Positions 7,257 through 8,986 of a DNA stretch of 14,237 nt are shown here, piece after piece (within the stretch, counting starts at the first letter, position 1; every line of letters starts with the position of its first letter). The translations under genes were made by a program, and so were the position numbers. The DNA is from Anaerolineae bacterium (GTDB lineage: Bacteria > Chloroflexota > Anaerolineae > B4-G1): assembly GCA_016783285.1 (NCBI GenBank), contig JADHWW010000152.1, positions 1 through 14,237 of the forward strand, in the 5' to 3' direction. Below the pieces are notes generated by a model. That model searched no databases. It saw nothing but the letters and a program-made list of their open reading frames with translations, and was not told the DNA's origin.

Positions 7257-7285
7257 TTGGCAATACGCAGAATCTGTGGTACATT
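7257..7285 (+). promoter_or_regulatory. Promoter of the DNA methyltransferase gene
   Basis: TTGGCA (7257-7262), 17-nt spacer, TACATT (7280-7285) preceded by TGG as an extended -10. Predicted start of transcription is near 7292, about 55 nt before the GTG start codon. Confidence 0.6.
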
Positions 7286-7294
7286 AACAGAGTA

Positions 7295-7313
7295 ACAATC
7301 CGTTTTAGGATGA
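7295..7313 (+). promoter_or_regulatory. Operator-like site in the methyltransferase leader
   Basis: ACAATCCGTTTTAGGATGA matches 13 of 19 positions, including the core CCGTTTT(A/G)GG, of the inverted repeat before the HTH-nuclease gene (8968-8986 read on the minus strand). Its own arms are ATCC/GGAT. It lies at about +4 to +22 of the predicted transcript, a typical repression position. Binding by the HTH protein is inference. Confidence 0.4.
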
Positions 7314-7351
7314 GTTCACTTGAGAAACTCGAGAGTAGAGGCAACCAGTGA
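7310..7351 (+). other. 13-codon upstream ORF overlapping the methyltransferase start
   Basis: ATG at 7310 opens a 13-codon frame (MSSLEKLESRGNQ) whose TGA at 7349-7351 overlaps the GTG start at 7348 in a GTGA arrangement. That suggests possible translational coupling. No good ribosome-binding site precedes the ATG, so it may be chance. Confidence 0.25.
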
Positions 7352-8088
7352 TAGCTAGACAGATCTCCTTTTTGGAAGAGGATATTAGAGGGAGCAAAAG
7401 GACCCAAGGAGGGAGAACCAGTTCAAATTTAGTTGTGTCGGCGTATGTCGGCACTAATGATGAGGTTTTCCCAAAGATACTTGAGCTTCACGTTCCAGAG
7501 AGAGCGCTAGTGGCAGATGTGACTTACGGCAAAGGGGTTTTTTGGAAACGAGTACCTAAAGGCAAGTACAATCTAATAGCTAGCGACATTGCTTCAGGGG
7601 TTGATTGCCGAAACTTGCCATACAGGTCAGAGTCAATTGATTGCGTTGTGCTAGACCCGCCTTATATGGAAGGCTTCTATCGCAAATCGGCCAGCCAAAA
7701 GGCTGGCTCTGGTACATATAGCTCTTTCAGAGACCACTACTCTAACGGAAGTGAGAAATCTCAAGGCCCCAAATGGCAAGCCGCTGTGCTCCATTTCTAC
7801 ATTCAAGCAGGTAAGGAAGCCCACCGCGTTTTGAAAGACAACGGAGTGCTTATAGTCAAGTGTCAAGACGCCGTAAGCGCGAACAGACAGCATCTAACAC
7901 ATATTCAGATTGTGTTCGAGTATCAAAAAATGGGCTTTTACGCAAAGGACCTATTTGTACTAGTTCGTAGAAATAGGCCGGCCGTAAGCCGGATAAAAAA
8001 ACAAGTCCACGCGAGAAAAAACCACTCTTATTTTCTCGTTTTTGTCAGAGTTCCCGCAAACAAAACCCTCCAGTCTATGCGTTCTTAA
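7348..8088 (+). CDS. DNA methyltransferase (N6-adenine or N4-cytosine), putative R-M modification subunit
   Basis: A 246-residue Rossmann methyltransferase. ADVTYGKGVFW (residues 56-66) fits SAM motif I, LIASD (77-80) the acidic strand after it, and VVLDPPY (100-106) catalytic motif IV of amino-methyltransferases. Motif I precedes DPPY, unlike the beta-class N6/N4 enzymes. No separate target-recognition domain is obvious. The start is GTG, with GAGG at 7338-7341 six nt upstream. Its stop overlaps that of the convergent HTH-nuclease gene by 4 bases. The gene is clearly AT-richer than the flanking operons, which suggests transfer. It probably methylates the host's copies of the site cut by its neighbour. 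Target base and sequence cannot be read from the DNA. A GCCAGCC-AAAA-GGCTGGC hairpin lies inside at 7690-7707. Confidence 0.78.
   Translation: MIARQISFLEEDIRGSKRTQGGRTSSNLVVSAYVGTNDEVFPKILELHVPERALVADVTYGKGVFWKRVPKGKYNLIASDIASGVDCRNLPYRSESIDCVVLDPPYMEGFYRKSASQKAGSGTYSSFRDHYSNGSEKSQGPKWQAAVLHFYIQAGKEAHRVLKDNGVLIVKCQDAVSANRQHLTHIQIVFEYQKMGFYAKDLFVLVRRNRPAVSRIKKQVHARKNHSYFLVFVRVPANKTLQSMRS
7690..7707. repeat. Small perfect hairpin within the methyltransferase gene
   Basis: GCCAGCC (7690-7696), loop AAAA, GGCTGGC (7701-7707). It lies right after the DPPY-coding region and encodes ASQKAG. It could be another in-frame repeat insertion, but no second copy is seen in the window, so chance is possible. 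Confidence 0.35.
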
Positions 8089-8921
8089 TGCCGTTCCTGT
8101 ATTAGCTCATCAAGTACTTTGAAAAGATCATCGTGGAATGGCGGCTCCAGGGGCCAGGTGATCTCAACAGTTGTTGCCAATAGATATTGGCGTTGCTCAG
8201 GCGTGTATCCTCTCCAAGAGGTTCGAGGCAAGTCCTTGTTTTTGGCGAATACAAAACGCCACTCTTCCTCAAAAGGATAAGTGTTTACAGCAAGCACGTC
8301 GAACTCCCCTACCAGAAGACAAGTAGTAGACAGTGCTGTGCCGTTGGGCAAAGTGATTTGCCGTCGGTCGCTGGCATCCACCTGGGATTTAGCAGTCCAT
8401 CGCCCATCCTTATAGGCAACCGTGTTGGTCTGGAGAGATTTGGCCTCAATGATGAATTGCTCATCCCGATAAATGATTACACGATCTCCTTTTTTCCTGC
8501 GGTCGTGGTCATCAGCCTTGAGACAATCTGTTATCCTGGGTGGTTGCAACCATAACTCTTCGAGTTTAAATTCAGATATGTAGCCAAACAGCATGCCACG
8601 CAGACTAGGATTTTGTGCTAACAATTCTGTGAGGACACGAGCTGTTATTTCCCACTTTTCTAAAATGCTTCTCTTGTATTCTTCGTCGTATGACTCAATC
8701 CTTTCTATCATAGAACTGGGGTCAACGTCCAAGGCGCGAGTTACTTCAAGAAATTCTATGACATCCAAACGTCTTTCCCCACGTTCATACTTGGAAACGA
8801 ATGATTGTGGTTTATCAAGCTTTGTGGCAACCTGTGCTTGAGTAAGCTCATTCTGTTGGCGTGCTGTAACAAGAAGCCGGCGCAATAGATCGTATTGTTT
8901 CGAAAAGACAGACTTTGTCAT
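8085..8921 (-). CDS. XRE-type HTH fused to a putative PD-(D/E)xK restriction nuclease
   Basis: A 278-residue protein. Residues 15-67 form a classic XRE helix-turn-helix (ELTQAQVATKLDKPQSFVSK, then YERGERRLDVIEFLEV). After a helical linker, KKGDRVIIYRDEQFIIEAKS (143-162) provides D146 and E159-x-K161, the spacing of a PD-(D/E)xK nuclease core. It continues with GEFDVLAVN (205-213). No HExxH is present, so it is not an HTH-ImmA/IrrE protease. The ATG start has AGGAG (8929-8933) seven nt away. It is convergent with the methyltransferase and overlaps it by 4 bases. I infer a restriction enzyme carrying its own controller domain; a plain regulator with a dead nuclease fold is the alternative. It is AT-rich compared with its flanks. 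Confidence 0.65.
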   Translation of the reverse strand: MTKSVFSKQYDLLRRLLVTARQQNELTQAQVATKLDKPQSFVSKYERGERRLDVIEFLEVTRALDVDPSSMIERIESYDEEYKRSILEKWEITARVLTELLAQNPSLRGMLFGYISEFKLEELWLQPPRITDCLKADDHDRRKKGDRVIIYRDEQFIIEAKSLQTNTVAYKDGRWTAKSQVDASDRRQITLPNGTALSTTCLLVGEFDVLAVNTYPFEEEWRFVFAKNKDLPRTSWRGYTPEQRQYLLATTVEITWPLEPPFHDDLFKVLDELIQERH

Positions 8922-8947
8922 AATGCAACTCCTGAACGTTTCTCTGA

Positions 8948-8986
8948 ACTATACAACCCTTTTTGGAATAACCCAAAACGGGTTAT
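8948..8986 (-). promoter_or_regulatory. Promoter with overlapping inverted-repeat operator
   Basis: On the minus strand, TTGGGT (8971-8976), a 17-nt spacer and TATAGT (8948-8953). ATAACCC (8968-8974), loop of 5, GGGTTAT (8980-8986) is a perfect 7-bp inverted repeat that covers the -35 box. This is a classic layout for autorepression by an XRE-type protein encoded just downstream. Confidence 0.6.

Follow-up and report, generated by a model that had tools for sequence, protein, structure and literature searches.

Controller and nuclease in one polypeptide: a putatively self-limiting restriction-modification cassette of the NruI/Sbo13I family in an Anaerolineae bacterium

Described systems and the Anaerolineae cassette

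The type II restriction-modification (R-M) system Sbo13I resides on a 5.4-kb plasmid of Shigella boydii C13 and is an isoschizomer of NruI that cuts TCG^CGA; the controller gene sbo13IC precedes the endonuclease gene sbo13IR, and the methyltransferase (MTase) gene sbo13IM lies opposite (PMC2890505). NruI of Nocardia rubra is placed in the same family by that report, in which the endonucleases (R) of the two systems are 46% and the MTases (M) 49% identical, both systems recognize TCGCGA, and M.NruI and M.Sbo13I are reported to differ in the base formed, 6mA or 4mC. Here we describe a cassette of this family, found in a stretch of 14,237 nucleotides from an Anaerolineae bacterium (assembly GCA_016783285.1, contig JADHWW010000152.1, forward strand; hereafter the window), in which a helix-turn-helix (HTH) domain and the nuclease share one open reading frame (ORF).

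Fusions of a controller (C) protein to a restriction endonuclease (REase) have been characterized previously. CR.NsoJS138I and other PvuII-family C-REase fusions resemble the window protein, here termed CR, in carrying the C domain N-terminal to the REase in one polypeptide; CR.NsoJS138I was active both as a REase and as a C protein, activating its promoter in vivo, and fusion in that family may have arisen more than once (PMC3850674). These proteins differ from CR in their REase family (PvuII) and in their PvuII-type controllers. The closest printed case of the window architecture is ORF1763 of Corynebacterium matruchotii, reported in 2010 as an NruI homologue annotated with an XRE HTH beside an M.NruI homologue (PMC2890505). 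It is likened to CR here by description only; its activity was untried in that report, whose passages on the ORF contain no discussion of it as a C-REase fusion. A 2025 review cites the 2013 paper for C-REase fusions, and its main text names neither NruI nor Sbo13I. The C-REase kind of fusion, the NruI/Sbo13I enzyme family and an HTH-bearing member of it are all known from earlier print, and the window adds a member. The first-pass annotation, made from the window's letters alone, had recognized no named system in this architecture, a view that the analysis did not support.

A tblastn search of plasmids led to S. boydii pSB13 (NC_019357), which carries, side by side, genes for an HTH protein and for R and, facing them, an MTase gene. 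From its size (5424 bp), host and gene order we infer that pSB13 is the Sbo13I plasmid of S. boydii C13. Because M of the window is 63% identical to the pSB13 MTase, and the R domain of CR 52% identical to pSB13 R over about 190 aa, the cassette can be assigned to the NruI/Sbo13I family of type II R-M systems. The two loci share the M family, the R family, an HTH regulator and a convergent M, and pSB13 has an operator of the same kind (28.1 bits upstream of C and 24.4 bits upstream of M, scored as described below); they differ in that C (75 aa) and R (224 aa) of pSB13 occupy separate frames whereas CR is one protein of 278 aa. NruI, compared by description only, differs further, with an R of 219 aa, no controller described, and a gap of 326-350 bp between R and M (PMC2890505).

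The genes for M and CR converge and overlap tail to tail by 4 bp (8085-8088). GC content was 43-48% in segments of 500 bases within 7251-9000, against 65-71% to the left (6001-7250) and 64-75% to the right (9001-11000). Alignment (blastn) with the closest relative fetched, locus L007 from a Thermoflexia metagenome-assembled genome (MAG), gave a single match at 81% DNA identity, and neither flank aligned. Because this similarity is confined to 7223-8984, the cassette was delimited at about 1.76 kb, promoters included, and judging from the alignment it seems to move as one unit of that size. The first-pass annotation had both ORFs, their overlap and the AT-richer island between GC-rich flanks in the right place, and set the limits slightly short, at 7257-8986. 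Chance overlap of two frames was ruled out by 1277 homologues of the HTH-nuclease (E<=1e-3) and by 7835 homologues of the MTase among 7999 candidates scored. Scans with Rfam and for tRNAs found nothing.

Table 1. Features of the cassette, in window coordinates
Feature	Position	Strand	Basis
Whole cassette	7223..8984	none	Extent of DNA similarity to L007; low-GC island
Likely M promoter, TTGGCA-17-TACATT, TG preceding -10	7257..7285	+	Consensus scan
OM, degenerate operator-like site just downstream of M -10	7295..7314	+	-1.1 bits
Possible M ribosome-binding site, AGAGG	7337..7341	+	Read from sequence
M, amino-methyltransferase, M.NruI/M.Sbo13I family	7348..8088	+	Pfam, phrog, pSB13 identity, alignment
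CR, controller-restriction endonuclease fusion, 278 aa	8085..8921	-	ORF, Pfam, homologues, structure
C-terminal PD-(D/E)xK REase domain, residues 85-278	8085..8669	-	
Predicted catalytic residues D146 (8486-8484), E159 (8447-8445), K161 (8441-8439)	8439..8486	-	Conservation
N-terminal XRE HTH, residues 1-83	8673..8921	-	
CR ribosome-binding site, AGGAGT	8928..8933	-	Read from sequence
Likely CR promoter, TTGGGT-17-TATAGT	8948..8976	-	Read from sequence
O2, second, weaker operator box, 15 bp from O1, between -35 and -10	8952..8971	-	Predicted
O1, primary operator box, ATAACCCGTTTTGGGTTATT, overlaps -35	8967..8986	-	Predicted; 30.2 bits leave-one-out

M is a protein of 246 aa with a GTG start that matches Pfam N6_N4_Mtase (E 9.1e-10) and phrog_24333 (1.9e-68). 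Its DPPY motif (motif IV; residues 103-106, 7654-7665) was invariant in 15/15 aligned MTase rows, and a PDB sequence search with M as query returned no match. A consensus scan of the region listed five promoter-like sites, the M promoter among them, where 2.4 were expected; the TGTGGTACATT stretch of the M promoter was also present upstream of M in L007 and L010.

CR has an ATG start, and its HTH and REase are read in a single uninterrupted frame. Its HTH matched Pfam HTH_3 (E 2.7e-10), and its nuclease domain gave at most a sub-threshold match to NERD (E 0.062). Few residues link the two, between predicted helices 68-83 and 86-89, and because the linker is so short, the question of whether both halves of a C-REase fusion dimerize at once, discussed for the PvuII family (PMC3850674), applies to CR as well. 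No ribosome-binding site could be read upstream of an internal ATG at residue 71.

In the predicted structure D146 is followed by a strand (147-151) and by a second strand (154-163) that bears E159 and K161, the order of a PD-(D/E)xK core, with D at the start of one strand and (D/E)xK on the next. The best structural matches of the nuclease domain were I-Ssp6803I, Hjc, NhoI, PvuII and EcoRV. All five are PD-(D/E)xK enzymes; I-Ssp6803I (2ost) is 9% identical to CR and is a homing enzyme, not an R-M nuclease. D146 was conserved in 76/77, E159 in 77/77 and K161 in 77/77 of the rows compared; in a set of 39 rows D146 and K161 were each present in 39/39 and E159 was nearly invariant. The adjacent acids DD137/138, the pair named in print, were considered as the catalytic acid and set aside: they were conserved in 75/77 and 74/77 rows, yet are replaced by S, by N, or by R and A in three of the 39 rows, and they sit in a lower-confidence stretch of the model preceding D146. 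On alignment and model, D146 is better supported as the active-site acid than this pair, which offers a candidate correction of the published NruI active site to D146-X12-E-x-K in place of DD-X21-E-V-K.

The protein composition described by the first-pass annotation was confirmed: a 246-residue DPPY methyltransferase and a 278-residue protein with an XRE HTH and with D146, E159 and K161 at the positions given. Its reading of the locus as an R-M cassette in which one polypeptide combines controller and nuclease is supported. Neither outcome that it had named as refuting was obtained: the structure is predicted to have a PD-(D/E)xK fold, and homologues of the nuclease domain do neighbour a methyltransferase, as described below.

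A conserved candidate operator and the proposed regulation of CR

Relatives were collected by a scan of genome contigs, in which the best 80 of 481 confirmed matches represented 79 distinct loci; R is present in 59 of these, the other 20 matching through the HTH alone, and the class frequencies are no census. Together with the window, four plasmid loci and three viral loci, the R-bearing rows number 67. M of the same family was found in 58/59 sampled R loci and was convergent with R in 55/59, which agrees with the expectation of the first-pass annotation that homologues of the HTH-nuclease would neighbour a methyltransferase. Of the 59 loci, 15 have the HTH in the same frame as R, 23 have it in a gene of its own upstream, and one has it on the opposite strand; in 20 it went undetected, tblastn giving no match at 1e-4. 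These are mechanical calls on draft contigs, in which an assembly frame error can mimic a split. A stop lies inside R in L011 and L049.

A motif was derived from the regions upstream of C or CR in the 41 rows having both HTH and R, with the consensus ATATCCCGTTTTGGGATATT. With leave-one-out scoring and a threshold of 12 bits, 38/41 of these upstreams carried the operator (fused 15/16, split 23/25; the misses were L024, L019 and L043), compared with 3/205 shuffled upstreams. The operator was also found upstream of M in 24/40 HTH-bearing rows (fused 6/16, split 18/24; shuffles 0/200), a set that omits L002, where the gene crosses the start of the plasmid record. In rows not having this HTH in place it reached 12 bits in 0/25 R upstreams and 0/25 M upstreams (shuffles 0/125 and 1/125), both sets including L058, which has another HTH, and the M set including L065. 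The best scores among these rows were 9.3 (L045), 9.1 (L003) and 9.1 (L004) bits on the R side and 6.9 bits (L009) on the M side, where 1/25 exceeded the 99th percentile of the shuffles.

In the window, O1 was the sole match at up to three mismatches, and none occurred in 200 shuffles. O2 was predicted from a GG that recurs at offsets 28-29 (35 and 34 rows, respectively, among the 40 counted) and from 12-nt arms 92% complementary with O1; it lies mostly in the 17-bp promoter spacer and is followed by the TATAGT -10. The CR promoter was not listed by the sigma-70 consensus scan because its -35 matches at only 3/6 positions. The same spacing with TATAGT or TATAAT can be read in L008, L010, L025 and L031. 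No operator for the NruI/Sbo13I controller was found in searches of openly licensed PMC papers.

Our reading, to which we give a probability of about 0.8, is that the locus is a mobile type II cassette of the NruI/Sbo13I family whose CR protein cuts unmethylated DNA, most probably at TCG^CGA, and limits its own synthesis through O1 and O2. In this model M would be expressed from its own promoter, free at first, giving early protection of TCGCGA sites, and the C-terminal domain of CR would do the cutting. Through its N-terminal HTH, CR would occupy the palindrome O1 and, by cooperative binding, O2, both of which overlie the CR promoter, such that accumulated CR would shut down its own gene and nuclease output would be capped by the nuclease itself. 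CR may also limit M in relatives, and perhaps weakly in the window. Autorepression is the simplest reading because the -35 lies under O1 and the spacer under O2. The feedback of the nuclease on its own synthesis proposed in the first-pass annotation gains indirect support from the conserved operator upstream of CR.

A possible, if on balance doubtful, alternative is that the HTH acts as C.PvuII or C.Esp1396I does, as an activator of CR while its level is low and as a repressor only once it is high, producing a timed delay of the nuclease. The Esp1396I layout, in which one controller has a pair of sites at C/R and a single site at M (PMC3758141), is like that of the NruI family; the CR -35, TTGGGT, is poor; and the fused PvuII-type protein did activate its own promoter in vivo (PMC3850674). 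Against this, O1 lies on the -35 and O2 between -35 and -10, whereas in Esp1396I the second site, OR, forms part of the -35 (PMC3758141). Since O1 overlaps the -35, even occupancy of the first box should hinder polymerase. Esp1396I differs further in its GAC half-site boxes, in their placement relative to the -35, and in having C and R separate (PMC3758141). That the HTH serves mainly in target recognition or tethering of the nuclease, with transcription control incidental, is very improbable: HTH and nuclease do form one covalent chain, and Type IV nucleases with DNA-binding N-termini exist according to the 2025 review, but 20/59 sampled loci have no detected HTH and yet retain R and, with one exception, M; NruI (219 aa) cuts with no HTH described for it (PMC2890505); and no row lacking the HTH has an operator above threshold. 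Decay or inactivity of the cassette is hardly more probable. The M box of the window is degenerate, transposase pieces and a truncated methyltransferase ORF lie in the window, and the CR gene of one close relative (L009) is missing its HTH part, lost where an element ends in a way resembling one in the window; set against these, neither frame is broken, the conserved catalytic residues are all present, and the ribosome sites and the operator of CR are intact.

A specificity other than TCGCGA is unlikely, if less so than tethering or decay. At 52% identity to pSB13 R isoschizomery is not guaranteed; however, M is 63% identical to the pSB13 MTase, NruI and Sbo13I share TCGCGA at the still lower identities given above for R and M (PMC2890505), and TCGCGA is depleted across R-bearing loci. 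Pooled over the 59 R-bearing loci it occurred 77 times against 146.5 expected, rank 4 from the lowest of 64 palindromes, and in the 20 HTH-only loci 38 times against 41.3 (rank 49). This depletion does no more than suggest TCGCGA as the target.

Several observations weigh against self-limitation and TCGCGA cleavage as proposed here. The comparison of TCGCGA pools counts and takes its control loci from different organisms; ACGCGT, CTCGAG and CAGCTG are as depleted in R-bearing loci; and the site is not clearly avoided in the window itself, with two occurrences against 3.3 (rank 32) or 5.7 expected. The operator rows are not all independent, near-copies such as L020/L021, L037/L044 and L001/L002 being among them, and 3/25 R upstreams without HTH exceed the 99th percentile of the shuffles, though below 12 bits. 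The poor -35 of CR would suit activation, while the positions of O1 and O2 suggest repression. OM of the window is not above shuffles (99th percentile 5.3 bits), unlike the best M-upstream box of L007, which scores 18.0 bits; and since a good M box is present in only 6/16 fused rows, fused forms seem to control M less strongly than split forms do.

Fused, split and HTH-less relatives

All 16 fused rows adjoin M of the same family, and 15/16 keep the operator at CR. C and R overlap by exactly 4 bp in 7/25 split rows (plasmids included; the first start codon in the R frame was taken), a layout from which a change of frame could fuse C and R. A tree of the R domain was built from 58 of the 67 R-bearing rows, 15 of them fused; on it the fused state changes eight times, at least five of these forced by well-supported branches; the tree is unrooted, so that direction is unreadable, and the changes include those to HTH-less as well as to split. 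Omitted from it were L003, L011, L049, L060, L062, L063 and L064, whose genes are partial or contain stops or frame breaks; L065, which is distant and has its HTH on the opposite strand; and L088, which duplicates the match of L087. Separate labels were given to L009 and L058, which the tree includes.

We tentatively propose, with less than even confidence, that the fused controller-nuclease, gained or lost at least five times, is a distinct regulatory solution under selection, in which dimerization at its own promoter lets the nuclease sense how concentrated it is, M being less tightly controlled. The difference in good M boxes between fused (6/16) and split (18/24) rows is cited for that looser control. 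The NruI family would offer a natural experiment on R-M timing, with a fused, separate or undetected controller in many phyla and an operator readable from sequence, and the question raised in 2013 of how C-REase fusion affects expression becomes testable by comparison.

A different fusion was observed in L058 (3953-4768; Chloroherpetonaceae MAG), where an NruI-family R is joined to a classic control-protein HTH (PADLOC Control_protein, E 3.6e-19). To judge from this match, it is a separate C-REase fusion whose controller belongs to another class; because this HTH gives no match to that of the window, the locus is counted among the 20 with HTH undetected. Neither changes between fused and other forms in the NruI family nor a fusion like that of L058 was found in searches of openly licensed PMC papers.

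Several relatives show other states of the genes. In pSB13 (L001:3542-4468) C and R are in the same frame, with a stop and 24 bases between them; in Escherichia coli pYLPK5b (L002), closely related, they overlap by 4 bp in different frames, so that the split itself differs. The close cassette relative L009 (88% DNA identity) has a CR gene without the HTH part at 2671-2788; the break adjoins a stretch matching window 4523-4630 (76%), and L009 has a further stretch that is 85% identical to window 3493-4395. Leptospira kirschneri pLiSL22 (L003:4004-5313, L004:3995-5304) carries two MTase copies, one beside an open R frame and the other beside an R annotated in two pieces. L045 (1528-2103) has an NruI-family R with no family MTase on its 5-kb contig, the sole such case of the 59.

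Relatives were also present in viral sequences. A first scan of viral contigs with a single protein query gave no relative. IMG/VR contigs L086-L088 contain an NruI-family R and M with no HTH, M and R being in tandem in L087 and L088. The mycobacteriophages Wheeler (L005:3947-4765) and Dallas (L006:3938-4834) have a family MTase (53%), and no R was detected in the part of either record that was fetched; this MTase may protect phage DNA from NruI-type restriction. Origin as a phage gene pair was set aside, as the phages collection holds no record covering 80% of the HTH-nuclease, with the MTase in 11 records; against setting it aside, viral contigs L086-L088 hold R and M together.

Other features of the window

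A piece of a DDE transposase, IS240/ISL3-like, lies at 3783-4436. The ORF at 114-1214 matches only part of MmeI/Eco57I-type methyltransferase profiles and is possibly a remnant of another R-M system. At 2212-3390 an ORF with Competence and DUF4131 domains is ComEC-like; it may be truncated, since its Competence match spans only positions 1-164 of the 270 of the profile. A PemK/MazF-type toxin gene (12103-12546) is overlapped by a small upstream ORF without a Pfam match (11898-12546 together), which could encode its antitoxin. Within a MiaB-like radical-SAM gene (4817-6277, minus strand), 16 copies of a TTGG repeat (5279-5342), read as T/N/Q/P-rich sequence, form a possible phase-variable tract.

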